Assembly: GCA_001302245.1 (NCBI GenBank)
Contig: LGYU01000016.1
Span: 186,001-250,000, forward strand
Origin: Chitinophagaceae bacterium PMP191F
Lineage (GTDB): Bacteria > Bacteroidota > Bacteroidia > Chitinophagales > Chitinophagaceae
Reading direction: 5' to 3'
Length of the DNA: 64,000 nucleotides
Shown here: positions 4,758 through 19,912 of the stretch, piece after piece
Position numbering within the stretch: position 1 is the stretch's first letter
Layout: each line of letters opens with the position of its first letter
Position numbers and translations under genes: made by a program
Notes under the pieces: model-generated
What the model was told of the DNA's origin: nothing
The model's database searches: none
The model's input: the letters and a program-made list of their open reading frames with translations, nothing else

Positions 4758-4763
4758 CACAAA

Positions 4764-4872
4764 ATATTCTTGAAGCGTTTTAGCTTTAAGTCCCGCACTG
4801 AAACTTAGGAACTTTCAAAGAGGCAATGGGACAATAAGTGAGAACGCTCATGCTACGGCGTGGGCGCACTTA
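4764..4872 (+). ncRNA. Candidate structured RNA, copy 1 (left flank of metal block)
   Basis: 109-bp element about 90% identical to 19705-19811. Its 3' part (4846-4865) folds into an 8-bp stem GCTCATGC / GCGTGGGC around a TACG loop (UNCG-class tetraloop; C-G closing pair). A longer-range pairing AGCGTTTT (5' side) with AGAACGCT is possible; copy 2 has AAAACGCT, so the one changed base keeps pairing (A-U versus G-U). A TATCTTTG promoter motif lies directly upstream. It points rightward, against the 3' end of the minus-strand metal block, and nothing on the plus strand follows it, so it would act as a stand-alone RNA. Its identity is unknown to me. Confidence 0.65.
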
Positions 4873-5261
4873 GGACATGAACCCGGAGCATCTCTAATGA
4901 TTTCAGGATGCATTGGGCAAGTGTACTGTACATTCTTTGGCTGAACTGACGGCAGCTTTTCTAAGTTCATACCACACACAGGGCAATTGCCTGGTTTATC
5001 ATACACTTTGTCCCCTTCGCAGTGCATAGGGCAATAGTATTTGCCAGTTGCACCAACAGAAGGTTTATCTTTTTGGTGCTGGTGATGTTCATGTTTTTTA
5101 TTTCTTTCATCCTGTACCGGCACTAACTGCATACCGCATACGGGACAGTTGCCGGGTTCATCATAAACTTTATCGCCTTCGCAATGCATGGGGCAATAGT
5201 ATTTAGTTTGAACATCACTAACCTTATTATGGCTATGTGTGTGTAATAGACTGTTATCCAT
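4848..5261 (-). CDS. Heavy-metal-binding (HMBD) repeat protein, 3' end overwritten by ncRNA element
   Basis: 137 residues with a His-rich N-terminus (LLHTHSHNK), then two near-identical HMBD units (YYCPMHCEGDKVYD.PGNCPVCGM) and a third, YTCPMHPEIIRDAPGSCPKC. The third unit is the type found at the N-terminus of copper P-type ATPases, where CPKC is followed by GMALVP. Here, right after CPKC, the frame enters the antisense of the ncRNA hairpin and ends with AHAVA and a stop. The gene therefore seems to be a longer protein (perhaps a CopA-like ATPase) truncated at the element boundary. The start overlaps the upstream membrane-protein gene by 8 bp. It has no signal peptide, so it is likely cytosolic, binding Cu or similar metals through Cys/Met/His. 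Confidence 0.75.
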   Translation of the reverse strand: MDNSLLHTHSHNKVSDVQTKYYCPMHCEGDKVYDEPGNCPVCGMQLVPVQDERNKKHEHHQHQKDKPSVGATGKYYCPMHCEGDKVYDKPGNCPVCGMNLEKLPSVQPKNVQYTCPMHPEIIRDAPGSCPKCAHAVA

Positions 5262-5781
5262 AATTTTTTACTTTGAAACTCAAATAGTATATAAGAGCGG
5301 GTAATATCATAAACTGTAGTACAGGAGAAATACCTACCTTAATGACCGGTATGAGAGGCATTGATTTGTCATAAGCCCAATTGCCTAATGAAAGGTGTCT
5401 CATTTCTGCTAAAATTGCCCCTATGCCACCCACTAACATCAATATCAAAATTCGAAGCATGGTAAATTCCTGCACCCATAACGGGTTTTTATAAATCAGT
5501 GCAAAGCAGAAATAAATTAGAAGAACCATTATAGCATCGGCTACCGATGCCAAAGCACAGAATGCAATGTGTTGTATATTGAACGGAGCGTCTTTATACA
5601 ACGGCATTTGTAATACTTCCCATGCCAAATTAAACAGGAAAGCGAGCACAAGTGTAATGACAACAAATCGTTTAAAAACTTCTTTATTATCTACTTTCTT
5701 TAACAAATAAAGAAGCAATAAGACCACCAGTATCAGAGCGATTACCGGTACAAGGAAAATGATAGGATTAAGAGTGTTCAT
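5254..5781 (-). CDS. Polytopic membrane protein, unknown
   Basis: 175 residues with about five hydrophobic segments: residues 5-27, 38-58, 70-93, 103-123 and 150-170. Distinctive loops are AWEVLQMPLYKD and LGNWAYDKSMPLIP, the second followed by VGISPVLQFMILP. I do not recognise a named family. It lies between the copper-storage protein and the HMBD protein in the same minus-strand series and overlaps the latter by 8 bp, so the two are probably translated together. A transport or metal-handling role is inferred from context only. Confidence 0.65.
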   Translation of the reverse strand: MNTLNPIIFLVPVIALILVVLLLLYLLKKVDNKEVFKRFVVITLVLAFLFNLAWEVLQMPLYKDAPFNIQHIAFCALASVADAIMVLLIYFCFALIYKNPLWVQEFTMLRILILMLVGGIGAILAEMRHLSLGNWAYDKSMPLIPVIKVGISPVLQFMILPALIYYLSFKVKNYG

Positions 5782-5865
5782 TACACTTGTTTTAATGTTC
5801 TTTTATAACATGATTTACTCTATAGTAATGAGGGCTGTAACCTTTGGTTAAAACCCTCATAGAAT

Positions 5866-6177
5866 TTAAGCAGCAATCTTTCTGCATTCAGCTTCACATC
5901 TTCTGCATTCTTCTGCGCAACGTTTGCAATGTTCATCGTTATGCTTTTCGCATTCTTCGGCACAAGCACGGCAGGCATCGGCACATTGTTGTACTGAATT
6001 AGTACTGCCATTCCTACATTCCTCTGCACATCTGCGACATACATCAGCACATTGCCTGCATTGTGTTTCACACTGTTCCATTCCTGGCTGTCCTGCGCAA
6101 TTTTCAGCACAGGAGTTGCACTCTTCTTCACATGCTTCACAAGCATCAATGCAGCTTTGGAGATTTTGATTACTCAT
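5866..6177 (-). CDS. Cys-rich four-helix bundle copper-binding protein (Csp-like)
   Basis: 103 residues with about 24 cysteines in the helical spacing CxxxC and CxxCxxxC (IDACEACEEECNSCAENC, RQCADVCRRCAEECRN, KRCAEECRRCEAECRK). This is the hallmark of copper storage proteins, where four helices line a core of thiolates holding many Cu(I) ions. It lacks a signal peptide, suggesting the cytosolic type. A small Met/Gly loop (GQPGMEQCE) separates the first two helices. It lies among HMBD proteins, supporting a copper-buffering role in this block. Confidence 0.9.
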   Translation of the reverse strand: MSNQNLQSCIDACEACEEECNSCAENCAGQPGMEQCETQCRQCADVCRRCAEECRNGSTNSVQQCADACRACAEECEKHNDEHCKRCAEECRRCEAECRKIAA

Positions 6178-6250
6178 TTTGTAATAGATTAAAGATGTCT
6201 TCAGTTCCGCTGTTGCCCGGTCTTCAGATTAGCTGTTGCCCTTAAAGTGA

Positions 6251-6508
6251 TTACTTAGTAGGTTTTGTGTATGTACCTTCTTTCATCATCTTTTGCTGCT
6301 CGGCTGTCATTTTCTGCTTTACCAGTTTCATCCCGCATTTTGGACATTCACCTTCATGGTCGCTCATTACCTCGTTGTGCATTGTGCAGGTGTACATTTC
6401 GTCTTTAGCTAATTGCTCTGTTTTTGGCTTGCTACTGTTGCCTGAACAAGCTGTAAATACAAATGCCATTGAAAAAAGGATAGCTGTGATAAAAAATAAA
6501 TTTTTCAT
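6251..6508 (-). CDS. HMBD lipoprotein
   Basis: 85 residues. A lipoprotein signal (MKNLFFITAILFSMAFVFTACSG, lipobox FTAC, Cys21) anchors it at the membrane facing the periplasm. A single heavy-metal-binding unit follows (YTCTMHNEVMSDHEGECPKCGMKLV), then a Met/Lys-rich tail with QKMTAEQQKMMKEG. It is likely a periplasmic metal sink or donor to the Cus system. It belongs to the run of small metal-binding genes and has a 73-bp gap to the Csp gene. Confidence 0.85.
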   Translation of the reverse strand: MKNLFFITAILFSMAFVFTACSGNSSKPKTEQLAKDEMYTCTMHNEVMSDHEGECPKCGMKLVKQKMTAEQQKMMKEGTYTKPTK

Positions 6509-6575
6509 GATTGTTTGTTTTAAAGAGAGGCAGGCATAGCGCTGCCACCCATGTGACTTCGTTTAAAGTTGGGAA

Positions 6576-7016
6576 TTAATCTTTCTTGGTGTTCTTTGCG
6601 ACCATCTGCATACCACAAACCGGGCATTTACCGTTTGTAGCACTACTGACATTTGGGTGCATTGAACAGGTATAAACAGTTGCAGCTTGCTTACTACCTC
6701 GCCTGTCTATAACTAATTTTGAACTGCATTTCGGACAATTACCGGGGCTGTTACTTACCACATCGGTATGCATTGGGCATGTATAGGTTTGCGTTACCTC
6801 TGCCTTCATTTGTTCTTTTTTGGATAGGATTAAATCCATGCCGCACTTGGGACACCTCCCCTGTTGGGAACTGTTCACTTCGGGATGCATTGGGCAGGTA
6901 TAACTTGTTACCACTATTGCGTTACTATCTGCTTTTGATGATGTCTGCTTTGCTTTTTGGGCATAGATTGCTGTAGTACCAGCAATCATTAGCATAAGAA
7001 TGATTAAGCGTTTCAT
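6576..7016 (-). CDS. Exported protein with three HMBD repeats
   Basis: 146 residues from the start at 7016, chosen because it opens a signal peptide (MKRLIILMLMIAGTTAIYAQ); an in-frame ATG 54 bp upstream overlaps the previous gene. Three HMBD units follow: YTCPMHPEVNSSQQGRCPKC, YTCPMHTDVVSNSPGNCPKC and YTCSMHPNVSSATNGKCPVC. The first and third are followed by GM and the middle one by SS, so its metal site may differ. It is probably a periplasmic multi-site metal-binding protein. It has a 29-bp gap to the upstream HMA protein gene. Confidence 0.85.
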   Translation of the reverse strand: MKRLIILMLMIAGTTAIYAQKAKQTSSKADSNAIVVTSYTCPMHPEVNSSQQGRCPKCGMDLILSKKEQMKAEVTQTYTCPMHTDVVSNSPGNCPKCSSKLVIDRRGSKQAATVYTCSMHPNVSSATNGKCPVCGMQMVAKNTKKD

Positions 7017-7045
7017 TTTGTTTATTTTAATTAGTGAATGATAGA

Positions 7046-7411
7046 TTAGATATTGCGGCAATGACAACAATCAGGCAAAGCATTATAGGCTGTATCATTT
7101 GCCTTATATTGGTCATTGTCATGACCTACAGCGGCTAACTTCTTCTGTACTATGTCAGCAGCTTCCTTTTTAAAAATGCTGTATTTTGAGGTTAGTTTCT
7201 TTGTGTTTTCGTCCCATATAGCTGACTTCACACCTTCAACAGATAAAGCGGTATTTTCTATACGCTTTTTACACATTACACAGACACCGTTTACCTTAAA
7301 CGTTTGTGTACTTATACCAATGGTTCTTTGTGATTTGTCGCTTTGTGCTGATGCAGTATGAAAGGTGAACAATGCACCTATTATGACGATTAATGTTTTA
7401 AGCGTTTTCAT
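7046..7411 (-). CDS. Exported HMA-domain metal-binding protein
   Basis: 121 residues with signal peptide MKTLKTLIVIIGALFTFHTASAQ. The mature part is a heavy-metal-associated ferredoxin-fold domain with CVMCKKRIE (CxxC near residue 44) in place of the common GMTCxxC. The C-terminus has a second Cys/His cluster, LPDCCHCRN. It is likely a periplasmic metallochaperone. It lies between the HYC_CC_PP gene and the HMBD repeat gene on the same strand. Confidence 0.8.
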   Translation of the reverse strand: MKTLKTLIVIIGALFTFHTASAQSDKSQRTIGISTQTFKVNGVCVMCKKRIENTALSVEGVKSAIWDENTKKLTSKYSIFKKEAADIVQKKLAAVGHDNDQYKANDTAYNALPDCCHCRNI

Positions 7412-7559
7412 TGTAATATTTATTGAGCTAATTATTGCGAGGCAGCGAAAGCATTGCCTGATAATTAGAAATATGAAGGAATAAATTGAGAAAGTTGAGT
7501 TGATGAACTCAAGAATGCAATGGTATAACAGAACGTTATAGCACTAAAGAGTGGGAAAA

Positions 7560-7946
7560 TCACAGTCTGAAAACGCAATTGTAAATGTAGATGGGTACGC
7601 CCTGATGTAAAGGCGGTGCATTGCTTCTATAAGCAATGGTAGTTTTTTGCGAAACAAAAGAAATATCTTGAAAAGAAGGAGTGTAAAGATGTAAGTCGAT
7701 AAAATGCTTGAATGGAAAATCTGCCTGGTCGGCTGAAATATGATTATCCTTTACTTTGAAGAATTGAAACTTGCTATCGCAACATCCGGTCTTATCATCG
7801 CCATTGCCACATTTATCTTTTGCTTCCTGTAATAATGAAAAAGTTACTGATTTGAGCTTGCCGCAACAATAAAACTGCTTTAGGCTGAAGCCCATTGTTG
7901 CCAATGAGTAAACACAAATAAGCAATATGATTGCAGCTTTTTTCAT
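7560..7946 (-). CDS. HYC_CC_PP family exported protein, second copy
   Basis: 128 residues with N-terminal signal sequence MKKAAIILLICVYSLATMG. The family motifs are present in variant form: FYCCG for HYC, GCCDSKFQFFKVKDNH for the CC region, and APPLHQG near the C-terminus. It is divergent from the member at 3474-3863 (HYCGD, HPPDQ) but has the same length and layout and the same ending (NCVFRL versus NRVFRI). Function is unknown; position in the metal block suggests a periplasmic metal-related role. Confidence 0.75.
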   Translation of the reverse strand: MKKAAIILLICVYSLATMGFSLKQFYCCGKLKSVTFSLLQEAKDKCGNGDDKTGCCDSKFQFFKVKDNHISADQADFPFKHFIDLHLYTPSFQDISFVSQKTTIAYRSNAPPLHQGVPIYIYNCVFRL

Positions 7947-8112
7947 TATCTTATAGCGAAAGTACGAATATTTAAAAGGGAAGGTTTACAGAATTATGGT
8001 TAAGTTTTACAGAATTTTTGGATGAGCTGCTAAACTCTTACCTTTTGTATTCTTGCAGCCTTGATATTCAAGGCTTTTTTCCTTTAACTCAACAAGAAGG
8101 TCGTACCATTCA

Positions 8113-8328
8113 TTAGTTACAACAAGATTTGCTCGTTTGTATCGGCGGGCAAGCTACAGTGCCATAGCTGCAAAATACGCAACAATCTCCCTGCTTGGGC
8201 TTTAGTATTGTCTCACAATTTGTACACTTGTAGAAATACTGACAAGCATCTGTAGGCATGGTTTCTTCTTTCTGAAAACCGCAATTAGGGCAAGTGATAG
8301 TCGATTGTAGTGTTAGTGTTTTTTCCAT
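8113..8328 (-). CDS. GDCCVxC-domain protein, cassette 1
   Basis: 71 residues from the start at 8328, two bases after the MerTP stop. It has an N-terminal ITCPNCG zinc-knuckle, then CxxC (YKCTNC) and the motif GDCCVFCSYGTVACPP that names the GDCCVxC family; some family members have selenocysteine at one of these positions, here all are Cys. The tail is SKSCC. It is always seen next to merTP-type genes in this window (also 27941-28153), suggesting it receives or traps the metal that MerTP imports. Biochemical role is not established. Confidence 0.85.
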   Translation of the reverse strand: MEKTLTLQSTITCPNCGFQKEETMPTDACQYFYKCTNCETILKPKQGDCCVFCSYGTVACPPIQTSKSCCN

Positions 8329-8330
8329 GA

Positions 8331-9026
8331 TTACTCTGCTTTCTGGCAACTTGACTTCGATGAACTGCTGCACTCTTTTGTATTGCTTGCTTGTGCTGTT
8401 GAACCGCTATTTAGTAATTCGTACCCTTTTACTTTGTAGCCTGTTTTGTTAATGGCTACTTCAATGGTTTTTACATCAACTTTTGATTTATTGAAAGTAA
8501 CCAAGCTACTTCTTGTTGCATAAGAGGTTTTATAGGCTAATATACCGTTCACTTTAGACAGTTCATTGTTTACATGCTCTTCGCAACCTTCACAAGTCAT
8601 GCCTTGTATAGTGAACTTAACTTGTTGCTTGTTATCGACAACTGCAAGTTCCGTTGCCGTCGTAGTGGACTTTGGATAGAACACTTTAGCGTATAGTGGA
8701 AATGCCATCATTAAAATAGCAAAGACAGTGACAATACCCAGGAATGCTTTTGACTGAAGGAAAGATGCCTTCCTTGTTGTTTCGCAATTGCACTCTGTAT
8801 CGTTTGTTTTAGCAGGTTTTAGTTTTCCGTACCAAGCAAAGGCAAGGACAGCTATAGATAGTCCTATTAAATAGGGTCGTGCGGGTTCTATCCAAGAAAA
8901 GTTTGCTGCAATGCTGCTACTGCCTGCAAGCAAGGCAACAAAAGGTGCAATGCAACAAAGCGAAGCTGCAATAGCCGATAATATTCCTGCACTTGTGAAT
9001 GTGCCTGATGATTTTAAACTTATCAT
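8331..9026 (-). CDS. merTP: Mercuric transport fusion protein MerTP, cassette 1
   Basis: 231 residues. MerT-like N-terminal half: first helix with the CC pair (ASLCCIAP, Cys24-25), a second helix and a cytosolic Cys pair (CNCETT). A third helix (~95-115) is followed by a MerP-like HMA domain with GMTCEGC (Cys145/148). In the family, MerP Cys residues capture Hg(II) outside and hand it to MerT for import. The start overlaps the arsR stop (ATGA-type overlap), so it is translationally coupled. No merA reductase is present in the window, so the physiological substrate is open; Hg is the family default. Confidence 0.9.
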   Translation of the reverse strand: MISLKSSGTFTSAGILSAIAASLCCIAPFVALLAGSSSIAANFSWIEPARPYLIGLSIAVLAFAWYGKLKPAKTNDTECNCETTRKASFLQSKAFLGIVTVFAILMMAFPLYAKVFYPKSTTTATELAVVDNKQQVKFTIQGMTCEGCEEHVNNELSKVNGILAYKTSYATRSSLVTFNKSKVDVKTIEVAINKTGYKVKGYELLNSGSTAQASNTKECSSSSKSSCQKAE

Positions 9027-9400
9027 ACTGTTTCCAGTTTTTGTGTTTGTTGGTTGATGTGCTTAAAGAAAGGCTTCAAAATCTTTATGTTCTCTTGGGT
9101 AAGTGAGTAATAAATGGTTTGTCCTTCTTTTCTTGCTTCTACAATGTTGCCATCTTTCAATTTGCGTAAGTGCTGTGATACTGCCGGAATGCTCATGCCT
9201 AAAATATCGGCAAGGTCACAAGGGCATAGCTCTTTTTCTTCTTCCAATAGATAAACAATCTTCAGCCTTACTTCGTTACCTGCCAATGCCAAGATATTTG
9301 AAAGGCTTACAAATGATTTTTGTGCCGTCTTCAACTTGCCTTTACAATTCTTAATCTGCTCCTGGTCGGCAAAAAGTCTGATACATGTATTGTCATTCAT
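9023..9400 (-). CDS. ArsR/SmtB-family metal sensor of merTP cassette 1
   Basis: 125 residues with a winged helix-turn-helix. ELCPCDLADILGMS (residues ~58-71) has the Cys pair in the position of the ArsR alpha-3 metal site (family ELCVCDL), and SIPAVSQHLRKLKDGNIVEARKEGQTIYYSL forms the recognition helix and wing. A further Cys is in the N-terminus (NTCIRLFAD). It should repress its own operon (arsR-merTP-GDCCVxC) until metal binds. A perfect dyad at 9423-9444, 23 bp upstream of the start, is the likely operator. Confidence 0.9.
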   Translation of the reverse strand: MNDNTCIRLFADQEQIKNCKGKLKTAQKSFVSLSNILALAGNEVRLKIVYLLEEEKELCPCDLADILGMSIPAVSQHLRKLKDGNIVEARKEGQTIYYSLTQENIKILKPFFKHINQQTQKLETV

Positions 9401-9422
9401 GCAGCGAAGGTAACAAAAAAAC

Positions 9423-9444
9423 TATTTAAGCAAATTCTTAAATA
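9423..9444. promoter_or_regulatory. ArsR operator dyad, cassette 1
   Basis: TATTTAAG-CAAATT-CTTAAATA: 8-bp perfect arms with a 6-bp spacer. The same arms and spacer length occur upstream of the second arsR at 29182-29203 although the surrounding DNA differs. It lies where the -33 region would be, upstream of a TTACCTTCG that resembles the -7 element. Confidence 0.8.
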
Positions 9445-9500
9445 TGAGCTAGGCCTATTTTAACAATGGTAAGCTATTCAAAGTTGTATTGGATAGTGCT

Positions 9501-11477
9501 CTAAACCTTGATTTTCTGAATGCGGACAGCATTTAAAATTGCTAACAGTGCTACTCCTACATCTGCTATTACTGCTTCCCAAAGATTGGCAACACCACCT
9601 GCTCCTAAGATGAGCACTACAATCTTTACACCCATAGCTAAAAAAATGTTTTGCCAAACAATGTTGCGTGTAATCTTTCCCACCCTGATTGCCGAAACGA
9701 TTTTGGAAGGCTGGTCGTTTTGAATAACAACATCTGCTGTTTCTATTGTGGCATCACTTCCTAAACCGCCCATTGCAATGCCTGCATCTGCTAAAGCAAC
9801 TACCGGTGCATCGTTTACACCATCACCAACAAATGCAATGTGTCTGCCTTCGTTCTTTAGCTGTTGTACTTTTTCTACTTTTCCTTCGGGCAATAAATCA
9901 CCATAACCATTGTCTATGCCAATTGCCTTTGCCACCTGGTCAACTACTTTTTGCTTGTCGCCTGATAACATCACTGTTTTTATGTTCAGGTCATGCATAG
10001 CCTTGATAGCCTGTACTGCATCTTCTTTTACTTCGTCGGCTATGGTAATGTAGCCTGCATATTTATTATTGATTGCTACAACTACAATGGTATCTACAAT
10101 GTTTTCTGCTTCCGAAGGATAAGAGATATTGAACCTTTTGAGCAGTTTTAAATTGCCTGCTAAAACTTCCTTACCTTCAACTGTTCCTTTCAAGCCATGA
10201 CCCGCAATCTCTTCTACATTCGTTGCTTTGGTATTATCTTCTGTATTGCCTGCATAGTCAACCACTGCTTTGCCGACAGGGTGTGTTGAGTTGCGTTCTA
10301 ATGCTGCTGTAATTCTTACTAACTCTTTTTCATCAATTCCACTGCCTACAACTTTCTGTACTTTGAAAACGCCTTTGGTTAGTGTGCCTGTTTTATCCAT
10401 CACCACAGTATCAACCTTTGTCATTACATCCAAGAAGTTGCCACCTTTAAATAGTATTCCGTTTCTGGATGCTAAACCTATTCCGCCAAAATAGCCTAAT
10501 GGTATTGACACAACCAATGCACAAGGACAACTAATCACCAGGAACACCAATGCCCTGTAGAACCATGTATAGAAAACATAATTGTCAACAATGAAGTAAG
10601 GCACAACACAGACTGCAAGAGCTAAAAAGAATACGATGGGTGTGTAGACTTTGGCAAACCGTGAAATGAATAGCTGTGTTTGTGATTTACGTGCTGTGGC
10701 ATCCTGTACCATTTCCAAGATGCGGCTTAGCTTACTGTCTTTAAAAGCTGATGTTACTTTTACCTGTGAAACGGTATTAAGGTTTATCATTCCTGCTAAA
10801 ACCTGTTCTCCTTTGTATTTCGTATCGGGTCTGCTTTCTCCTGTAAGTGCTGCTGTATTGAATGAAGCATTTTCTGAAATCAGTTCACCATCTAAAGCCA
10901 CTTTCTCACCTGGCTTTATTTCTATGGTTTCTCCAATGCTTACCTGTGACGGATTTACTACCTGTGTATTGTTATTCCTAACGACTGTTACTTCATCGGG
11001 TCGAATGTCAAGCAGGGCTTTAATATTTCTCTTTGCCCTGTTTACTGCTGCACTTTGAAACCATTCTCCAATCTGATAGAAAAGCATTACTGCAACACCT
11101 TCTTCAAATTCACCAATAGCAAATGCTCCAATGGTTGCAACACTCATTAGAACGAACTCATTGAATACGTCTCCACGTTTTGATTTGCGAAATGCCAATG
11201 CCAATACTTCTCTACCTGCAAGCAGGTATGCTACCAAGTTAATAGTTAGTCCTACCGGTTTGCTTAGCTCTATTCTGAAACCATACTCCAGCACCAAAAT
11301 GATTGTAAGTATTACAAATGACAACAGCAAATCCCAATGTGCTCTCAAGCTATCTTTATCTACTTCAACCTTTGGCGGTTGTACATCTGATGTTGTTTGA
11401 TACTGGTCAGACGGATTATCTGTAATTTTCGATAACTCGTCTAACTGCAAACTCTTGTCTTTATTTGTGTCTGCCAT
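9501..11477 (-). CDS. cadA: Zn/Cd/Pb-type P1B ATPase
   Basis: 658 residues. ATP-driven export of divalent soft metals across the inner membrane. Motifs in order: phosphatase loop TGES, membrane metal site SCPCALVVS (CPC of P1B type), phosphorylation site DKTGT, HP locus (STHPVGKA) and GDGVNDAPVVALADAGIAMG. The C-terminal helix has the Asp typical of Zn/Cd/Pb pumps (VIADVGVAL). The N-terminus is acidic and lacks an HMA CxxC domain. The start at 11477 lies 6 bp after the neighbouring membrane-protein gene. Substrate class is from the CPC-plus-Asp pattern; the exact metal is not determined. Confidence 0.92.
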   Translation of the reverse strand: MADTNKDKSLQLDELSKITDNPSDQYQTTSDVQPPKVEVDKDSLRAHWDLLLSFVILTIILVLEYGFRIELSKPVGLTINLVAYLLAGREVLALAFRKSKRGDVFNEFVLMSVATIGAFAIGEFEEGVAVMLFYQIGEWFQSAAVNRAKRNIKALLDIRPDEVTVVRNNNTQVVNPSQVSIGETIEIKPGEKVALDGELISENASFNTAALTGESRPDTKYKGEQVLAGMINLNTVSQVKVTSAFKDSKLSRILEMVQDATARKSQTQLFISRFAKVYTPIVFFLALAVCVVPYFIVDNYVFYTWFYRALVFLVISCPCALVVSIPLGYFGGIGLASRNGILFKGGNFLDVMTKVDTVVMDKTGTLTKGVFKVQKVVGSGIDEKELVRITAALERNSTHPVGKAVVDYAGNTEDNTKATNVEEIAGHGLKGTVEGKEVLAGNLKLLKRFNISYPSEAENIVDTIVVVAINNKYAGYITIADEVKEDAVQAIKAMHDLNIKTVMLSGDKQKVVDQVAKAIGIDNGYGDLLPEGKVEKVQQLKNEGRHIAFVGDGVNDAPVVALADAGIAMGGLGSDATIETADVVIQNDQPSKIVSAIRVGKITRNIVWQNIFLAMGVKIVVLILGAGGVANLWEAVIADVGVALLAILNAVRIQKIKV

Positions 11478-11483
11478 AATTTA

Positions 11484-12098
11484 CTATTTAATGAGAAATG
11501 AAAGAATACCTGTTATGACCAGCGTGAAACCTGTAATGATACCGGCTTTATGTTCCAATGAATGCCAACTAAGTTTCAAGATGCCTTTGTAAGCATAGCG
11601 AACCAATAGCACCATGCCTGTTGTAGTTACCAGTAAATATGTTGCTGCAATCAGTATGACCAGCCATGTGCCGACAGCTCCTGCCAATAAGAAATAGACT
11701 TCTATTTCCATGCAGGGAGAAAAGAACATTGCTATAACCAATGCTGTTATGATGGCGGCTTTTGTCTTTTGCTTCTTCAGTTCGTCGTTTATATGAAAGT
11801 GTTTGTGTACGTGGTGACGGTAGATGAAGATTAAACCAATTGCAATTAGTATTATTGGAGCTATAATGTTTGTAAAATGAGTAAGACTGTCATCCAGTTT
11901 TGAACCCAGGAGACTTAAAACAACTCCTATCAATACTGTACTAATGCCGTGAGCTAAAGCAAAAACCAAAGTAACTTTTGTAACTTCTTCTAAGGACCAT
12001 TGCTCTTTTCTGCCAATAGCTATTACAGGCAGCCAATGATTGGGAATGACTGCATGTAGTAAACTTATGATTAAGCTGCCTGTAATGATGCTAAGCAT
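11484..12098 (-). CDS. Polytopic membrane protein, possible metal transporter
   Basis: 204 residues with about six hydrophobic segments. Helix 1 has HAVIPNHWLP, helix 2 ALAHGIST, and a cytosolic loop is His-rich (YRHHVHKHFHINDELKKQKTK). A SPCMEIE motif follows in helix 4. The His motifs in helices and loop resemble NicO/UreH-like (LysE-superfamily) nickel/cobalt or metal exporters, but I cannot assign the family firmly. It sits directly upstream of the P-type ATPase (6-bp gap) and overlaps the preceding small membrane gene by 8 bp, so it is part of one operon. Confidence 0.7.
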   Translation of the reverse strand: MLSIITGSLIISLLHAVIPNHWLPVIAIGRKEQWSLEEVTKVTLVFALAHGISTVLIGVVLSLLGSKLDDSLTHFTNIIAPIILIAIGLIFIYRHHVHKHFHINDELKKQKTKAAIITALVIAMFFSPCMEIEVYFLLAGAVGTWLVILIAATYLLVTTTGMVLLVRYAYKGILKLSWHSLEHKAGIITGFTLVITGILSFLIK

Positions 12099-12330
12099 TT
12101 CGTGCTTTTTGATTTAGAGTGTTTCTGGTGCGAAGACCGTAATAAAGAAGTATCACTGTCAGAATGATTGATAGTACCAGCATGGTTTTGTGTGATGCTG
12201 CTGTGATAGTGAAACCAAATATTTGTATCGGGTATTTATCAATCATCAAAAAGAAAACATCATCAATAATGTCTTTTGCAAAGAAGCCTGCTAAGAAGAT
12301 AGCAAGTATTTTTTTGGAAGATATTTTCAT
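12091..12330 (-). CDS. Small two-helix membrane protein, unknown
   Basis: 79 residues with two hydrophobic spans, about 8-30 and 45-65, and a basic C-terminus (RTRNTLNQKARNA). The helices flank a loop with DKYPIQIFG. No known domain. Its 3' end overlaps the start of the next membrane protein, which supports it being real and co-translated. Function unknown. Confidence 0.6.
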   Translation of the reverse strand: MKISSKKILAIFLAGFFAKDIIDDVFFLMIDKYPIQIFGFTITAASHKTMLVLSIILTVILLYYGLRTRNTLNQKARNA

Positions 12331-12368
12331 AACTATTTTGTTTGATGTTATAAGAAATGTGTTTGTTT

Positions 12369-12824
12369 CTATTTGCCTTTCTTACCTGCTGCTGCTCTCC
12401 TGATTATTAATTCGATGGCTTTTTGCTTGTCGCTTACCAATGGGTCAAGCTCTGCCTTTATAATGCCCAATGAAGAAACGCCTATGCCTAATACACCTTC
12501 GATGCTGTTCAAATCATCTTCTTCTGTGGTTGCCACTACACTTGCACCGTATGGGTCTGCCGTGCCGCTTACAACAGAAGGAAAATGAATGTTTATACCA
12601 GTAATGTTTGCACCACTACTTTCTACTGTTTCTTCAATTTTGTTGAAAGGCAATTTCTGTACATCGTAGTTGATGTTTATTTTTGCATGGCTACTTTCGT
12701 TTTCTTCAATGGCCATTACACTTTCAACACCTTCCAATTGTTTTAGTGCCGCATCAATTTGCTTGTTCCATTCGTTGTTCAATCCTGGCTTATGAATGTT
12801 TAGAAATAAGAGTGTTGCTTCCAT
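12369..12824 (-). CDS. HMA-like fold protein lacking CXXC
   Basis: 151 residues. The N-terminal half follows the beta-alpha-beta pattern of HMA domains (ATLLFLNIHK, then a helix to GVESVMAIEENESSHAKININYD, second helix LPFNKIEETVESSGANITGINIHFP) but has no cysteine. The C-terminal part includes GVSSLGIIKAELDPLVSDKQKAIELIIRRAAA. It lies 24 bp downstream of cusB, so it probably works with the efflux complex, but without metal thiolates its role is uncertain. Confidence 0.65.
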   Translation of the reverse strand: MEATLLFLNIHKPGLNNEWNKQIDAALKQLEGVESVMAIEENESSHAKININYDVQKLPFNKIEETVESSGANITGINIHFPSVVSGTADPYGASVVATTEEDDLNSIEGVLGIGVSSLGIIKAELDPLVSDKQKAIELIIRRAAAGKKGK

Positions 12825-12848
12825 AACAATATCAAGTTTGGGTCTGAT

Positions 12849-14159
12849 TTATTCTTCTTCTTCTCCACCACCTTTTGCTTTTGATAAAATGTAGTTTGCT
12901 CCTTTTACGACAATCTTTTCTTTATCAGGAAGCTCGCTAATGGGAGTAATTTTGATGTAACCTAATTCACTAACACCCGTAACGACTTCTACCATTTTGA
13001 AGCGTACTGATTTCTCATCTTGTTCACCCTTTTCTTTGCCTTCTGCCTTTTCCTTTTCTTCAGCTTCTTCACTACCTTTTTCTTTTTTTTCTGCTGCTTC
13101 ACTATTTTCTTCATCCACGACAAAAATGTAGTTCTTGCCTTCTGACTGCACTACTGCATCTACAGGAATTGCCATAACCTGTTCGCTGCCAACACTGATT
13201 AAAGCAGTAACATACATTCCAGGGATGAGCCTGTATGTATTGGCATTCTCAATGATTGCATGAACAACAATGCCTTTGCTTTCGTTCTCGAAAGATTTAT
13301 TTACGCCATAGACCCTGCCTGTGATTTCCCTGTTGTCCTGATTGGTTAAAGTGAAGGTCACCTTCTGCCCATTCCTAACTCTAAAAAGGTCTTTTTCAAA
13401 TACAGTAAGGTCAGCATGGATTTGTGAATTGTCTATGATTTCCATTAAGGAGTTGCCGGGTTGAGCATAAGCCCCTGTGTTTACCAAGATGTGACCTACT
13501 GTGCCACTGATGGGAGCATACACATTAATTCTTGTAATGATGCTGCCCCTTGATACTGTGCCGGAATTGATGCCTAATTGCTTTAGCTGTGCTTCCAGTG
13601 TTGTTATCCTTGCTCTTTCGGTATTGTAGTTTGCCTGTGCTTCCTGCAACTTTTTCTTTATGCCTGCACCTGCTTCATCCAATTCTTTTTGTCTTTGCAA
13701 CTCGGCTGCGGTGTAAGAGAAAGAATTTTTAGCGGTCAAGTAGTTTTCCTGAATAGTAACTAATTCAGTATTTTCTATTACTGCCAATACCTGCCCTTTC
13801 TTAACTTGTTGCCCTTCTATCGGTACAATTCTCCTGATAACCCCACCTGCCAAAACATTTACATCAGCTCTCTTTTGTGGTGGTACTGCAAGCTGACCAC
13901 TTGCCTTTACTACCTGGCTTAAATTCTTTAGTTCTATTGTGCCATACTCAATGCCTACGGCTTCGATCTGTGCCTGTGTAAGCTCTATGCCTTCTTCGGC
14001 TTCTTCTGTTTTTGTGGTTTCCTTCTTTTCTGTTGCCGTTTCTTCAGTAGTCTTCTTGTCCGAACAACCGGTAAGAATGATGGATGCACCTATGCAAAGA
14101 ATTAGCAGGATGCTTTTATAGAATGATGATGACATTTTATCTATGCTTTTATAGTTCAT
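12849..14159 (-). CDS. cusB: Periplasmic adaptor (CusB/CzcB) of RND pump
   Basis: About 436 residues. Lipoprotein signal ending ILTGCSDKK, an acidic linker (ETATEKKETTKTEEAEEG), a barrel-sandwich/lipoyl part (RIVPIEGQQVKKGQVLAVIENTEL), a coiled-coil hairpin (~150-200) and a beta-barrel (YAPISGTVGHILVNTGAYAQPG). A long Glu/Lys-rich stretch (EKKEKGSEEAEEKEKAEGKEK) is inserted near residues 355-385, and the C-terminus is acidic. It links the inner-membrane pump to the outer-membrane factor. I take the start at 14159 right after the pump stop; ATG 14135 is an alternative. Confidence 0.85.
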   Translation of the reverse strand: MNYKSIDKMSSSFYKSILLILCIGASIILTGCSDKKTTEETATEKKETTKTEEAEEGIELTQAQIEAVGIEYGTIELKNLSQVVKASGQLAVPPQKRADVNVLAGGVIRRIVPIEGQQVKKGQVLAVIENTELVTIQENYLTAKNSFSYTAAELQRQKELDEAGAGIKKKLQEAQANYNTERARITTLEAQLKQLGINSGTVSRGSIITRINVYAPISGTVGHILVNTGAYAQPGNSLMEIIDNSQIHADLTVFEKDLFRVRNGQKVTFTLTNQDNREITGRVYGVNKSFENESKGIVVHAIIENANTYRLIPGMYVTALISVGSEQVMAIPVDAVVQSEGKNYIFVVDEENSEAAEKKEKGSEEAEEKEKAEGKEKGEQDEKSVRFKMVEVVTGVSELGYIKITPISELPDKEKIVVKGANYILSKAKGGGEEEE

Positions 14160-14160
14160 G

Positions 14161-17100
14161 TTATTGCTGACCATTTAGGTATTTAAGATTGATTACTGCC
14201 TCGTTCAACTGTTGCAATGCTTCCAGGTATTGCAGTTTAATCTGCATTGCCTGTGTTAAGTTCTGCACCATTTCAACATAACTGATTTCGCCTTTGCTGA
14301 AAGCAAAACGTGCAATACGTATTTGCTCATTTGCCAAACTGATGCCTTCTGTCTGGTAATAATCTACCCGCTCTCTGTGCTTGAGGTATTGCTGGTAGGT
14401 TGACTGATATTCAGATGTTAGTTGCCATTGGGCCCTGTTAAGGTCCTGCTGCGCAATAGCTACATTCAACTTTTCTGCTTCTACTCTCGCTTTGTATGGT
14501 TTTGTAAACAAAGGCAGTGACATTCCTAACTCAACACCTGCTATACGAGTGCCAGGGAAATAGTTGCGATTGATTTTTGCAGGGTCAAAACCTTTTACAA
14601 CAAGCTGGTGATTGTAACCAATGGAAAACTCCGGTAGCCTTTTTGTTCTTTCTAATGCTACTCTTGATTGAGCAACATTTATGTTTTGCATGTGATACGT
14701 CAATATAGGATTTTGATTAGCCGCCGTATCAAAAGAAATGGTTTCAGAAGGGTAAAAAGTTTTGTCTGTTGTGTCAATGGCTATGTCACCTGTGACATTT
14801 GTTTGCTGTCTTATCAGGGTTTCATATACTCTTAAATCTGCCAACGATTCTTTCTTCTGTAGCCGGATTTCAAACGATTGGTTTTGTGCTGTGAGCCTTT
14901 CAAGGTTTGATGTTTCGCCTACTTTGTACCGGATGTTTGCTTTGGATGAAAAGTCTGTATAAACACTATCCAAGTAGTTAAGCAATCTCAATCTTTCGAC
15001 CGTGTATAGGTAATTGTAATAAGCAAGCTTGATGTTACGCACTATTTCTGCTTCGGTAACCTGCTTATTTGCTTCTGCCAATTTGGTTTGCTGCTGATAT
15101 ACGTTTCGCTGTGTCTTGTAAACACCAGGCAAAGAGAATGATTGAGAAACACCGATAGAGTTATCAATGTTGCCGCCGCTTGTAGGGTCTTGCGTTACAG
15201 TGAAGTTTGTTTTTGGTAAATCAACGGCTGTATTTTGCATGGTTCTGTTTTGTTGTATCTCCAAACCTGAACGGCGAAGCTGCGGATTGTTTGCTCTTGC
15301 CTGCTGTATCAAGTTCTCCAAAGTTGGATTTCTTGATTGTGCATGGAGCTTTCCAAACAAGCCTAAGGAAGCAACCAAAATAACTAGAGGTAGTTTGTTA
15401 GATTGTAGAATTACCTTCTTGGTTCTGAACTTTTTCGATATTAAAACGTATAAGCTGGGCAGTACAAAAAGCGTAAGCAGGGTTGCAGTAAGCAGCCCAC
15501 CTATAACAACTGTTGCCAATGGCTTTTGTACCTCACCGCCTGCACCTGTTGATAATGCCATAGGCAAGAACCCAAGCGAAGCAACTGCAGCCGTCATTAC
15601 TACCGGTCTTAACCGAACTTTTGTGCCTTCCATCACCCGTTGGTTTATGTCTTCCATGCCTTCCTTTTTAAGTTGATTGAAATACCCTATCAGTACAATT
15701 CCATTTAGAACAGCTACACCAAATAATGCAATGAAACCTACACCGGCTGAAATGCTGAAAGGCATACCCCTGATTAATAAAGCAAATACACCGCCTATTG
15801 CTGAAAGCGGAACGGCAGTGAATATGAGCAAGGTTTGAGGAATTGACTTGAAAGTTACATAAAGCAGCACAAGGATTAATAACAAGGCAACAGGCACTGC
15901 TATTGATAGCCTTGACTTGGCTTCTTTCAGGTTCTGAAATTCGCCACCATAAGTGATGTAATAACCTGCCGGAAGTTTTAATTCTTTGTCCAGCTTCTCT
16001 TGTATTTCTTCTACTGTGCTTTCTACGTCTCTGCCCCTTACATTAAAACCTACAAACGTTCTACGCTTCCCGTTTTCTCTTGATACCTGTGCCGGTGCTT
16101 CTTTGAACTGAATGTTTGCTACCTGATTTAACGGCACTTTGTTACCTGATGGAAGCGGTATATAAAGGTTCTCAATGTTTGTTACATCTTCTCTTAGGTT
16201 TCGCTGAAGCCGAACTACCATGTCAAACCTTTTTTCCCCTTCAAACACAACACCTGCTGTACTACCCGCAAAGGCAGTTTGCAAAATGGTATTCACATCA
16301 TTGATGCTTAACCCGTATTGTGCCATCTTATCCCTGTTGTACTCTACCGTTATTTGCGGCAATCCTGTAACTCTTTCAACAAAGGGCTCACTTACTCCTT
16401 TGACAGGGGCAATGATTTTGGATATTCTGTTTGCCTGCTGTGCAAGAATGTCTAAATCGTCACCAAATATTTTTATTGCCACATCCTGCCTGATGCCGGA
16501 TAAAAGTTCATTGAACCGCATTTGCATGGGCTGTGTAATTTCTACCCTAAGCCCAGGGAGAATTGATAGTGCTTCTTCCATTTTCTCCATCATTTCTTCT
16601 CTTGTCTCTGCACTGGTCCAATCTTCTTTTGGCTTCATGGCTACCATCATATCTGCTCTTTCAACCGGCATGGGATCTGTTGGTATTTCTGCACTACCTA
16701 TTCTTGTTACCACCTGCTTTACTTCAGGGAATTGTTTCTTTAAAATCCTTTCTGCTTTGGAGAACATCGCAACTGTTTGTGTTAATGATGTTCCCTGCAT
16801 CATGGAAACTTCTACGGTTAAATCGCCTTCTTCCAATGTTGGTATAAACTGACCGCCCATCCTGTTGAAGACTACGAGTGACAAAATGAATAATGCAAAA
16901 GCAATCAGCACTGTTGTTACTTTCCACTTTAGTACGGTACGCAAAGCAGGTTCGTAAATCCTATGCAATGCATTCATTATTTTATCAGAAATGGATTTCT
17001 TGTGAACGGTGCTCTTACTTAAAAATAAAGCACTCATCATAGGCACATAAGTGAGTGATAGAATGAAAGCGCCCAAGATGGCAAAAGCAACTGTTTGAGC

Positions 17101-18537
17101 CATCGGCTTAAACATTTTTCCTTCCACGCCGATTAACGCAAAGAGTGGTAAGTAAACGATAAGAATAATGATTTCACCAAAGGCTGCACTGTTCCTGATT
17201 TTGGATGATGCTGTATAAACTTCATCATCCATTTCTGCCTGTGTAAGCCGGGTCTTACCGGGAAATAAATTGCTTTCAGTAAGTCTAAAGATTATTGCTT
17301 CTACAATGATTACTGCACCATCTACAATTAATCCAAAGTCAATTGCACCCAAGCTCATTAGGTTTCCTGACACGCCAAAGGTTTTCATCAATGCAAAGGC
17401 AAAAAGCATAGCCAATGGAATAACTGATGCTACCAATAATCCAGCTCTCCAATTACCCAGTAATAACACCAGCACAAAAACGACTATCAAGCCGCCTTCG
17501 ACGAGGTTCTTTCTAACAGTGCCAATGGTTCTGCCTACTAATTCTGTTCGGTCAATAAACGGTTCTATAACTACGCCTTCAGGTAAAGACTTTTGAATTT
17601 GCTTCATCCTTTCTTTTACGTTCGCAATTACCTTGTTGAAGTCTTCACCTTTCAACATGAGTGTAATACCTGCCACGACTTCGCCTTCGCCGTTACGAGT
17701 AACAGCTCCGTACCTGGTAGCACTTCCAAACTGTACAGTTGCAACGTCTCTTACCAATATTGGAATTCCGTTCACTGATTTAATAACAATCTTCTCTATA
17801 TCAGACAAAGATTTTACCTGACCGATGCCCCTGATGAAATAGGAATTGTTGCGCTGCTCTATGTATGAGCCACCTGTATTGCCATTGTTATTTTCCAGTG
17901 CTTCATACAGTTCAGGTATGGTTATGTTGAGTGAATTGAGCCTGTCGTTATCTACCGCTACTTCATACTGCTTTACATATCCACCCCAGCCACTTACTTC
18001 CGCCACACCTTCTGTGCCTGCTAACTGGGTTCTTACGATCCAGTCCTGTATAGTTCTTAGATCAGTGGGAGAATATTTGTCTTTGTATTGAGGCTTTGTG
18101 TGTATGGTGTACTGGTAAATTTCACCCAAACCTGTAGAGATTGGAGCAAGTGAGAGCTTGCCAAAGCCTTCTGGAATGACTTCCTGAGCTTCCTTTAGCC
18201 GTTCATTTACCTGCTGCCGTGCCCAATAAACGTCTGTATTGTCATGAAATACCAGTGTAACTACTGAAATGCCTGAACGGGAAATAGAACGCTTTTCAAT
18301 CATTTCGGGTATGTTGGACATTGCCAATTCAACCGGTGCTGTAATGAACTGTTCTACTTCCTGTGCCCCTAAGTTGGGAGCCTGTGTGATAATCTGTACC
18401 TGGTTATTGGTAATATCCGGCACGGCATCAAATGGGAGTTTTGAAAGCGAATAGCTGCCCCAAATGATTAAGCCTAAGACAAAAAAGCCAATAACCAATT
18501 TGTTCCTGATGGAGAAATGAATGATCCTGTCTAACAT
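14161..18537 (-). CDS. cusA: CusA RND pump fused to TolC-type outer-membrane factor
   Basis: 1458 residues from the start at 18537, where the standard CusA N-terminus begins (MLDRIIHFSIRNKLVIGFF); the upstream in-frame extension is basic and unlikely. Residues 1-1045 are a complete RND metal pump with TM4 relay residues (GAIDFGLIVDGAVIIVE). A hydrophobic segment ending AQS near residue 1064 resembles a signal peptide. Residues ~1065-1458 are an outer-membrane efflux domain (NPTLENLIQQARANNPQLR, two coiled-coil repeats). Fusions of this type are known in Bacteroidota. How the fused OMF reaches the outer membrane is unclear; cleavage at the internal site is possible. The stop is adjacent to cusB. 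Confidence 0.9.
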   Translation of the reverse strand: MLDRIIHFSIRNKLVIGFFVLGLIIWGSYSLSKLPFDAVPDITNNQVQIITQAPNLGAQEVEQFITAPVELAMSNIPEMIEKRSISRSGISVVTLVFHDNTDVYWARQQVNERLKEAQEVIPEGFGKLSLAPISTGLGEIYQYTIHTKPQYKDKYSPTDLRTIQDWIVRTQLAGTEGVAEVSGWGGYVKQYEVAVDNDRLNSLNITIPELYEALENNNGNTGGSYIEQRNNSYFIRGIGQVKSLSDIEKIVIKSVNGIPILVRDVATVQFGSATRYGAVTRNGEGEVVAGITLMLKGEDFNKVIANVKERMKQIQKSLPEGVVIEPFIDRTELVGRTIGTVRKNLVEGGLIVVFVLVLLLGNWRAGLLVASVIPLAMLFAFALMKTFGVSGNLMSLGAIDFGLIVDGAVIIVEAIIFRLTESNLFPGKTRLTQAEMDDEVYTASSKIRNSAAFGEIIILIVYLPLFALIGVEGKMFKPMAQTVAFAILGAFILSLTYVPMMSALFLSKSTVHKKSISDKIMNALHRIYEPALRTVLKWKVTTVLIAFALFILSLVVFNRMGGQFIPTLEEGDLTVEVSMMQGTSLTQTVAMFSKAERILKKQFPEVKQVVTRIGSAEIPTDPMPVERADMMVAMKPKEDWTSAETREEMMEKMEEALSILPGLRVEITQPMQMRFNELLSGIRQDVAIKIFGDDLDILAQQANRISKIIAPVKGVSEPFVERVTGLPQITVEYNRDKMAQYGLSINDVNTILQTAFAGSTAGVVFEGEKRFDMVVRLQRNLREDVTNIENLYIPLPSGNKVPLNQVANIQFKEAPAQVSRENGKRRTFVGFNVRGRDVESTVEEIQEKLDKELKLPAGYYITYGGEFQNLKEAKSRLSIAVPVALLLILVLLYVTFKSIPQTLLIFTAVPLSAIGGVFALLIRGMPFSISAGVGFIALFGVAVLNGIVLIGYFNQLKKEGMEDINQRVMEGTKVRLRPVVMTAAVASLGFLPMALSTGAGGEVQKPLATVVIGGLLTATLLTLFVLPSLYVLISKKFRTKKVILQSNKLPLVILVASLGLFGKLHAQSRNPTLENLIQQARANNPQLRRSGLEIQQNRTMQNTAVDLPKTNFTVTQDPTSGGNIDNSIGVSQSFSLPGVYKTQRNVYQQQTKLAEANKQVTEAEIVRNIKLAYYNYLYTVERLRLLNYLDSVYTDFSSKANIRYKVGETSNLERLTAQNQSFEIRLQKKESLADLRVYETLIRQQTNVTGDIAIDTTDKTFYPSETISFDTAANQNPILTYHMQNINVAQSRVALERTKRLPEFSIGYNHQLVVKGFDPAKINRNYFPGTRIAGVELGMSLPLFTKPYKARVEAEKLNVAIAQQDLNRAQWQLTSEYQSTYQQYLKHRERVDYYQTEGISLANEQIRIARFAFSKGEISYVEMVQNLTQAMQIKLQYLEALQQLNEAVINLKYLNGQQ

Positions 18538-18791
18538 TGTAAAATTTGTATGGATATTAATCTGTAATACTTCAGAATTGCTCCTATTACGCCTAATAAG
18601 ACTATTGCGCTGAACAATATGCAAAAAACAGTGAAAAACATTTTTTTTGCTTTTCGACCATTTTCGACTTGCCATTTTTCGGCTGTACTTTTTTCTATTC
18701 GCTCTTAGTCGGGTCTTTGGCATAAGACAGACAACAATCAATTAACAGATAGAACTACAGACGGTAATTCTATAATCTATTTGATGTTATC

Positions 18792-19097
18792 TTAACACTG
18801 AGGAGGCTGTAGAACAGCACGGGTGTATGACGATGGGAGAAACAAACGTTGATATTCGTAATGCTTCAATACGGGTGCAGGTATTGTTGAGACTGGAGCT
18901 ATTTTAGCAATAATCACAAAGCCTACACAAGATGAACAGGAAAAGAAAGGAGAGCAAGTGCCTTCCTGTTTAATGGGATGGTTTCGAGAAGTGGATGAAG
19001 TGGTTTGGTCCGCGCCACAATTGTCCGTTGTGCAGCAGGGTACGAAGACCGCTACCGCAACAATGATGAGCAATATGAAGGCGAACCATTTCTGCAT
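18792..19097 (-). CDS. Small Cys-rich exported protein (DUF6660-like)
   Basis: 101 residues. A hydrophobic signal (MQKWFAFILLIIVAVAVFVPCC) is followed by Cys-rich DNCGADQ and CSPFFSCSSCVGF, with a C-terminal PPQC. Size and the C.PF.C.SC motif resemble the DUF6660 proteins of Bacteroidota; I make this assignment from memory of the motif and hold it loosely. It lies between the Fur-type regulator and the cusA fusion on the same strand, with a 254-bp gap before cusA that has no gene I can support. Confidence 0.6.
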   Translation of the reverse strand: MQKWFAFILLIIVAVAVFVPCCTTDNCGADQTTSSTSRNHPIKQEGTCSPFFSCSSCVGFVIIAKIAPVSTIPAPVLKHYEYQRLFLPSSYTRAVLQPPQC

Positions 19098-19146
19098 TGT
19101 TTACAAAGATAACAAAAGAAGACATGCAATAGTATTGCAATGTTAA

Positions 19147-19560
19147 TTATGGCGAACATTTCTGACATAAACCCTTGATAACCATGTTTATTTCCTGAGT
19201 TATGAACTTCTCAGGCAAGGTAACAAAAGGAATAGTATTGTCAGCTAAACAATACGTTCTTTTGCACGTGGTACAATGGAAGTGAACATGCAAATCTTTA
19301 AGGTGGCATTCGCAACCATCAATACACAGAGCATACTTAAGGGCCCCGGTTCCGTCATCAACACGATGAATTAGATTATGCGTTTCAAAGGTTTTGAGTG
19401 TCCTATAAAGTGTTATCCTATCAGCCTTTGCAAACGAACTCTCCAACTCACTAAGACTAATGGCTGCATCCTGCTTTGATAAAACATCCATGACCAAAAG
19501 GCGCATGGCAGTCGGTTTTACTCCTTTAGCTGCTAATTTAAATTCCATTTCCTTTTCCAT
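19147..19560 (-). CDS. Fur-family metalloregulator
   Basis: 137 residues with an N-terminal winged helix (GVKPTAMRLLVMDVLSKQ, RITLYRTLKTFETHNLIHR) and C-terminal dimer/metal domain. HVHFHCTTCKRTYC and a final GLCQKC provide two CxxC pairs for structural zinc, and His residues (HLKDLHVHFH) the regulatory site. Sequence does not separate Fur, Zur and PerR types. It is first in the minus-strand series leading into the cus operon and divergent from ncRNA copy 2, so it could control either. Confidence 0.85.
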   Translation of the reverse strand: MEKEMEFKLAAKGVKPTAMRLLVMDVLSKQDAAISLSELESSFAKADRITLYRTLKTFETHNLIHRVDDGTGALKYALCIDGCECHLKDLHVHFHCTTCKRTYCLADNTIPFVTLPEKFITQEINMVIKGLCQKCSP

Positions 19561-19689
19561 ACCAACCTTTTAATGTTTATTGTAGAGGCAGAGTGTACCA
19601 TATCACAAAGTTAATTATATCCCTTGTCACAGCCCTGTGTTAGAAGGTCATATTTGCATAAATCCTATGTCATTTCTCATCTGAAATTG

Positions 19690-19697
19690 TACCTTTG
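19690..19697 (+). promoter_or_regulatory. Bacteroidetes -7 element (TACCTTTG) of ncRNA copy 2
   Basis: Matches TAnnTTTG. It ends 7 bp before the conserved element begins, nearly the same spacing as at copy 1, although the rest of the upstream DNA is diverged. Confidence 0.65.
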
Positions 19698-19704
19698 TAA
19701 CAAG

Positions 19705-19811
19705 ATATTCTTGAAGCGTTTTTGCTTTAAGTCCTGCACTGAAACTTAGGAACTTTCAAAGGTAACGGGACATAAGTGGAAAACGCTCATGCTACGGCGT
19801 GGGCGCACTTA
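19705..19811 (+). ncRNA. Candidate structured RNA, copy 2 (right flank of metal block)
   Basis: 107-bp element matching 4764-4872. The tetraloop hairpin is at 19785-19804 and identical to copy 1. AGCGTTTT near the 5' end pairs fully with AAAACGCT before the hairpin. The two helices share GCT, so they could be alternative states, as in a switch. Downstream on the same strand, 101 bp away, is a 73-residue gene, so here it could be either a separate small RNA or a 5' leader; a second weak hairpin (TGCCTG / CAGGCA) lies between. Differences from copy 1 are clustered in the middle (around 19761-19780). Confidence 0.65.
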
Positions 19812-19912
19812 TTCGTTACCAGGTTTCCTAAGACCTCAGTGCGGTAAGTTGTTGCCTGCGCTATTTTTTATACAGGCAGCGAGTCGAATGAAACCATTAA
19901 AAGTAACATACC

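Follow-up and report, generated by a model that had tools for sequence, protein, structure and literature searches.

Metabolite riboswitches, such as those for cyclic di-GMP (c-di-GMP), S-adenosylmethionine (SAM), and preQ1, are among the described RNAs closest to the element considered here. This element was found in a 64,000-nucleotide stretch (the window) of contig LGYU01000016.1 of Chitinophagaceae bacterium PMP191F. One complete RNA of about 165 nt (copy 2) lies at 19705 to 19869 on the forward strand, measured from its predicted start to the predicted end of its U-run, and a partial copy (copy 1) lies at 4764 to 4872 on the same strand. As judged by sequence comparison, the element is probably a cis-acting 5′ leader RNA that is built as an attenuator and belongs to a class absent from Rfam 15. 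It resembles the metabolite riboswitches in its location in a 5′ leader, in a two-loop core between covarying helices, in a competing terminator or start-site helix, and in the many copies per genome. It differs from them in that it has no Rfam match and that the genes following it share no common pathway.

The c-di-GMP riboswitches likewise precede unrelated genes. A c-di-GMP riboswitch would be expected in a host that bears GGDEF proteins, and this identity was not supported, as only 2 of the 34 carriers possess one. The c-di-GMP signal is therefore unlikely, since a GGDEF protein is absent from the other 32.

Leader RNAs are also known before surface, secretion, and mobile-element genes. 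These include JUMPstart/ops with RfaH, the LoaP leader hairpins, and EAR. The element is like these processive antitermination leaders in being a leader RNA before genes of such kinds. However, it has no counterpart in Rfam, its covarying rod is larger, it occurs in carriers with a single NusG, and it often precedes one short gene. Factors of the RfaH, LoaP, and UpxY type have surface-polysaccharide, secreted, and mobile-element genes as their targets. The element could be a site at which such a protein antiterminator lets RNA polymerase through, and the kinds of genes found after it fit these targets. Against this, many of the targets are short single genes, and no specialised NusG paralogue was seen in 9 of the 22 RNA-positive genomes of the class, each with a single NusG match (an UpxY-type protein could have diverged below the cut-off). 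A NusG paralogue is therefore not required, and we regard a protein antiterminator as an unlikely explanation, although a protein of another kind may act here.

Two further comparisons can be made with published candidates. The parts of Fremin and Bhatt (2021; PMC8040213) that were consulted describe HMP2_4205 and HMP2_1032, candidates from Bacteroidetes that are nearly palindromic and 132 and 106 bp long. Predicted terminators accompany them, and TPR genes or TonB lie nearby. They were compared by description only; the candidate lists of that paper could contain parts of the present family. The consulted parts of PMC9723704 describe new structured 5′ elements in Flavobacterium psychrophilum that have no Rfam entry and are conserved among Flavobacteriaceae. 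No description of the present family was found in the portions of the literature that were searched (including PMC10994844, PMC8040213, and PMC9723704), which does not prove that it is unpublished. It is apparently an unnamed class.

The Rfam search that had been proposed in an earlier reading of the window, made without databases (the sequence-only reading), found no Rfam 15 family that covers the element. The sole match in the whole window was a DUF805 RNA at 41085 to 41150, off the element. When 19500 to 20100 was searched at E values up to 10, there were five chance-level matches, and the two that touch the element, suhB (12.5 bits, cut-off 41) and mir-1788 (14.3 bits, cut-off 57), are far below their cut-offs. 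Only two tRNAs were found at the loci of 20 relatives. A permissive search of 14 further loci gave four matches, none of them on the element.

Structure of the complete copy

Copy 2 is matched by the covariance model from 19731 to 19845 with 98.3 bits. Its first part is a 5′ leader segment, AGCGTTTTTGCTTTAAG (19715 to 19731), that can form either a local hairpin or an alternative pairing with 19779 to 19787. A rod of five helices follows. P1 joins GCACTGA (19736 to 19742) to TCAGTGC (19836 to 19842), the core helix P2 joins CTTAGGAA (19745 to 19752) to TTTCCTAAG (19824 to 19832), and P3 joins GGTAAC (19761 to 19766) to GTTACC (19815 to 19820). The P4/P5 region (19772 to 19811) contains P4, formed by ATAAGTG (19772 to 19778) with CACTTA, and P5, formed by GCTCATGC (19785 to 19792) and GCGTGGGC (19797 to 19804) around a UACG loop. 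P2 is flanked by conserved GAAA, UUU, GG, and RCCU. Farther 3′, the tail GCCTGCGCTATTTTTT (19854 to 19869) is an alternative partner of the 3′ arm of P5, with GCCTGCGCT as the 3′ partner of GCGTGGGC, and a terminator-like U-run ends the element.

The sequence-only reading had described two elements of about 107 bp, each with TAnnTTTG 6 to 7 nt upstream, a hairpin with a UACG loop, and a pairing of the 5′ end. All of these features were found where they had been placed. The location was right as well, and the extent was too short, since copy 2 runs to about 19869. From 19705 to 19880 the fold has a z-score of -7.34, and none of 200 shuffles was equally good. For the shorter segments 4764 to 4872 and 19705 to 19811, the z-scores are -4.10 and -3.75 on the forward strand vs. 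only -0.85 and -1.69 on the reverse strand.

Relatives and covariation

Relatives were sought with an exact 17-mer, GAAACTTAGGAACTTTC, that was scanned in genome contigs and was present in at least 118 stretches. The 3′ partner CCTAAG[AG]C accompanied 98 of 119 sites of the 17-mer in the loci L009 to L126. One of these 98, L100 from an alphaproteobacterium, was taken as a chance occurrence and dropped. A first covariance model, R1, was built from 54 partner-bearing sites and a second, R2, from 100 model-aligned members. A covariance search for further copies, as the sequence-only reading had suggested, did find more of them, with pairs that change on both sides.

Two alignments were used, one of 102 rows (A3, 101 distinct) and one of 100 loci that were not chosen by the 17-mer (A6, 96 distinct). 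In A3, 27 of the 28 pairs change on both sides, and 92.6% of the cells are paired, compared to 33.5 to 42.2% when the partners are slid. In A6, 96.1% of the pair cells are standard (34.2 to 44.1% in slid controls), and 1083 cells are doubly changed vs. 295 in shuffles. Covariation extends to P1, to P5, and to the core helix P2, in which, for example, CTTAGGA/TCCTAAG is replaced by CTGGTA/TACCAG. Next to P2, A6 contains unpaired bases that are near-fixed. They are RAA on the 5′ side of P2 (A in 99 and 99%), UUU on the 3′ side of its 5′ arm (93, 98, and 81%), GG before its 3′ arm (99 and 89%), and CCU after it (98, 98, and 91%). A conserved core therefore lies between covarying helices, as is expected of a riboswitch-type RNA.

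Alternative pairings

The sequence-only reading had proposed a switch, and alternative pairings, including that of the 5′ segment AGCGTTTT with AAAACGCT, are statistically upheld in the relatives. In the window, AGCGTTTT can pair with GAGAACGCT or GAAAACGCT in the two copies. The pairing tests used 97 of the 102 model matches (two matches at the ends of loci and the three with the lowest scores were omitted), and one more was without flanks. Near-duplicate removal left 81, of which 74 had a U-run of four and were used to test the tail.

Pairing between the tail and the apical region has a mean score of 20.2, compared to 15.8 with the tails of other sequences and 13.0 with shuffled tails. The own tail scored above the shuffled ones in 70 of the 74 and above the other sequences’ tails in 64, and the tail helix overlaps the 3′ arm of P5 in 56. 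In Kiritimatiellota, where the sequence is different, the tail pairing scores 28.0 vs. 14.2 and is above in all 35 loci. A run of five U within 60 nt was present in 55 of the 81, with 11.2 expected. For the 5′ leader and the strand that follows P3, the pairing score is 17.2 (14.1 in cross comparisons and 13.0 shuffled), and it was above the cross comparison in 69 of 81, vs. 29 of 81 for a control region. The predicted energies are near-equal, -16.8 kcal/mol for the apical hairpin and -18.3 kcal/mol for the tail duplex. Since they use the same strands, P1 to P5 and the alternative pairings should be mutually exclusive. On the sequence evidence, the RNA thus possesses a mutually exclusive expression platform of the riboswitch type.

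Position before genes

Genes were called as the longest open reading frame of at least 80 amino acids (75 in a set of five further genomes). The next gene is co-directional with the RNA at 105 of 121 sites, whereas the upstream gene is so at 64 of 118, 64 vs. 54 (130 sites, near-duplicates kept). With near-duplicates removed, the next gene is co-directional at 85 of 92 sites and the upstream gene at 53 of 90. With a gene cut-off of 150 amino acids, the counts are 76 of 84 downstream and 53 of 81 upstream, so the upstream lean is much smaller. In the five further genomes, the next gene is co-directional at 46 of 56 sites. The RNA therefore occupies the 5′ leader of a gene, as riboswitches do.

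A small RNA had been among the proposals of the sequence-only reading, and a promoter, a structure, and a U-run could indeed make up a self-standing transcript that acts in trans. Many relatives have a promoter-like box near the 5′ end and a U-run at the 3′ end. The strongly co-directional next gene makes a 5′ leader likelier than a small RNA. In addition, the ATG of the next gene begins no more than 8 nt past the tail at 23 of the 35 Kiritimatiellota loci. A free small RNA is thus quite improbable.

The promoter link made in the sequence-only reading recurs in the family. TAnnTTTG, which we take to be the -7 promoter box of Bacteroidota, is found upstream of the RNA in 39 of 71 relatives, with 2.5 expected in shuffles and with two distance clusters (the listed Kiritimatiellota were left out). 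In the window, the box of copy 2, TACCTTTG (19690 to 19697), is 7 nt upstream of the element, and that of copy 1 is TATCTTTG (4750 to 4757); both are on the forward strand.

The downstream genes are varied. Among 105 downstream proteins, 107 Pfam families were represented, the largest group had nine members, and no family prevails. They include nine SusC/RagA receptors, four BspA-type repeat proteins, three cytosine methyltransferases, and two extracytoplasmic function (ECF) sigma factors. A second set of 41 proteins, from the 46 co-directional ones after five doubtful gene calls were omitted, contained 32 families, with 11 PEP-CTERM signal proteins, three EcoRI-type methylases, two acyltransferases, and two GtrA-type proteins. 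A conserved partner protein, as in a retron, an RNA-guided system, or a toxin system, was considered and rejected, for no gene family travels with the RNA and the clusters are lineage-specific.

A constitutive leader, whose structured 5′ end stabilises or insulates the mRNA as a fixed partial terminator and senses nothing, would account for both the leader position and the unrelated downstream genes. However, the unpaired bases of the core are near-fixed across two phyla and two alternative pairings covary, and a passive stem needs neither. It is accordingly doubtful that the RNA is only a constitutive leader.

Distribution

In the source genome, R2 matched six places, which are five intact copies and the remnant. 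Among 149 sampled genomes of the source’s class, R2 matched 22 under strict filters; this is a lower bound, as few candidates were scored. R1 matched 23 of 296 genomes of the phylum. In a sample of 41 phylum genomes there were six matches, all of them from the source’s class or from closer relatives, and none of the 31 genomes in this sample that share only the phylum with the source had a match.

The genomes of 12 loci that were picked as carriers contain 3 to 22 copies each. Among these 12, five Kiritimatiellota have 8 to 22 copies, Bacteroides muris has 14, and a metagenome-assembled genome (MAG) with the putative label Pseudoflavonifractor has 11. The control genomes were those of 12 loci, 11 without the CCTAAG[AG]C partner and the alphaproteobacterial L100. 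A model match was absent from nine of the 12, all labelled outside Bacteroidota. The three that matched are Rikenellaceae, Alistipes, and a MAG with the putative label Lachnospiraceae, whose matches lie on contigs of putative assignment.

Long forms of the RNA were also seen (L045, L057, L126, and similar loci), mostly in MAGs of Bacteroidales. They have about 50 to 120 nt extra in the apical arm, and in several of them the pairing between the tail and the 3′ strand of this arm is retained.

Copy 1 as a broken remnant

Copy 1 is 91% identical to copy 2 over 112 matched query bases, and the hairpin GCTCATGC-TACG-GCGTGGGC is unchanged between the two. It retains the 5′ part of the RNA through the 3′ arm of P4. 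It lacks the tail and the 3′ side of P1 to P3, the pairs of P1 and P3 are broken, and the covariance models score it at only 38.9 to 41.3 bits. Identity is 98.3% between window positions 1 to 4872 and L027, a locus from Terrimonas, and 99.1% between 2588 to 4872 and L044, a locus from Flavihumibacter. Both loci continue past the breakpoint through the 3′ half of P1 to P3. Since neither match extends beyond 4872, a position within the RNA, the shared end of the two copies at 4872 and 19811 is a break of copy 1.

The window therefore has one intact copy and one remnant, and the remnant is unable to form the sensor core. Of the earlier claim that two copies bracket the metal-resistance block, both positions are correct, and the bracketing itself arose through a rearrangement whose breakpoint lies inside copy 1. 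Likewise, because copy 1 has lost the 3′ side of its first three helices, two maintained switches are not supported.

The sequence-only reading had also proposed a DNA hairpin used for recombination. A mobile hairpin or attachment site would be consistent with the break inside copy 1 and with one paralogous pair, whose high identity starts at the RNA tail. However, copies inside one genome are only about 50 to 66% identical while their pairs are preserved. In addition, the exact 17-mer was in none of the viral contigs, and the phage and plasmid collections, searched by exact 17-mer and blastn only, gave no blastn match. A mobile element of this kind is very improbable.

The paralogous pair consists of L281 and L282 (C12 and C8) of the source genome. 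Their RNA cores are 55% identical, the next 600 bp or so are mostly 95 to 99% identical, and many dispersed repeats, each of a few hundred bp, surround them. This pattern is probably the result of gene conversion, which fits because the homology spans the RNA, two genes, and the flanking repeats. A cassette landing at the RNA tail was rejected, as there are only two copies of the unit, the homology starts in the RNA, two genes are covered, and repeats flank them.

Neighbouring genes in the window

Copy 2 is followed by a gene for a 73-amino-acid protein (19913 to 20134, forward strand) with no Pfam family. It is not in the gene calls, since these need at least 80 amino acids, and a homologue was found 3′ of the RNA at 13 of 100 loci. 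Farther 3′, near or among mobile-element genes, are a HEPN-domain protein (21147 to 22010, forward strand) and a toprim/CHC2 primase (23048 to 23944). The 3′ end of a heavy-metal-binding-domain gene (4848 to 5261, reverse strand) runs into the remnant. In a 1526-amino-acid protein encoded at 14161 to 18741 on the reverse strand, a complete RND metal-pump domain of the AcrB/CusA type is fused with an outer-membrane efflux (OEP) domain. The DUF805 RNA of the window (RF03081, reverse strand, 70.5 bits) belongs to a known cis-regulatory family, and a second DUF805 RNA was seen at L234 (452 to 520), downstream of the leader RNA.

Proposed mechanism and its meaning

The attenuator could work through two shapes. 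In shape A, the rod of P1, P2, P3, P4, and P5 would form. The unpaired GAAA and RCCU between P1 and P2 and the unpaired UUU and GG between P2 and P3 would converge at P2 as the sensor core, and the 3′ arm of P5 would be occupied. In shape B, the 5′ leader would bind the strand that otherwise builds P4 and the 5′ arm of P5, so that the 3′ arm of P5 is freed. This arm could then pair with the tail directly before the U-run and make a terminator. In Kiritimatiellota, where the tail often abuts the start codon, a block of translation would also be possible. A stabiliser of the core, which may be a small molecule, a protein, or transcription speed alone, would allow the gene to be read. Within the window, the 73-amino-acid gene at 19913 would be under the control of copy 2. 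From the covarying helices, the alternative pairings, the U-run, and the position before genes that the relatives display, we infer that both shapes form in cells, as well as the direction of control and the signal.

Several observations weigh against the attenuator. Both alignments, A3 and A6, had been fitted to the structure in the model, and R2 had been trained on 22 of the 100 loci in A6. Two of five measures in A6 were not above shuffles, namely two-sided pairs (27 vs. 25.4) and further pair types (97 vs. 97.3). The tail helix is within 2 nt of the U-run in only 43 of 74, the five-U run is missing from the 60-nt window in 26 of 81, and the stem of the terminator would enclose a long loop, of about 50 nt. 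When the 5′ half alone was folded, the 5′ leader pairing was predicted in 66 of 68, which is weak by itself because a shuffled leader still gives about 47.5 of 68. In addition, no common pathway was found among the 105 and 41 downstream proteins, unlike for most metabolite riboswitches.

A more specific proposal can be made tentatively. The RNA may be a new riboswitch-type class that extends across two phyla, reaches 22 copies in a genome, and senses one widely used signal by the two-loop core around P2. This signal might set a programme of cell-surface, sigma-factor, and DNA-methylation genes. Transcription would be terminated in Bacteroidota, and in Kiritimatiellota the start codon could be masked as well.

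If the RNA is an attenuator, then gut and environmental Bacteroidota and Kiritimatiellota would share a class of regulatory RNA that annotation has missed. This class would stand before genes on which surface properties, nutrient receptors, and DNA methylation depend. Since its core bases are conserved and two folds compete, one can test directly whether it is an orphan riboswitch or a switch under protein control. A signal common to such varied genes would inform how these bacteria choose what they display at their surface.

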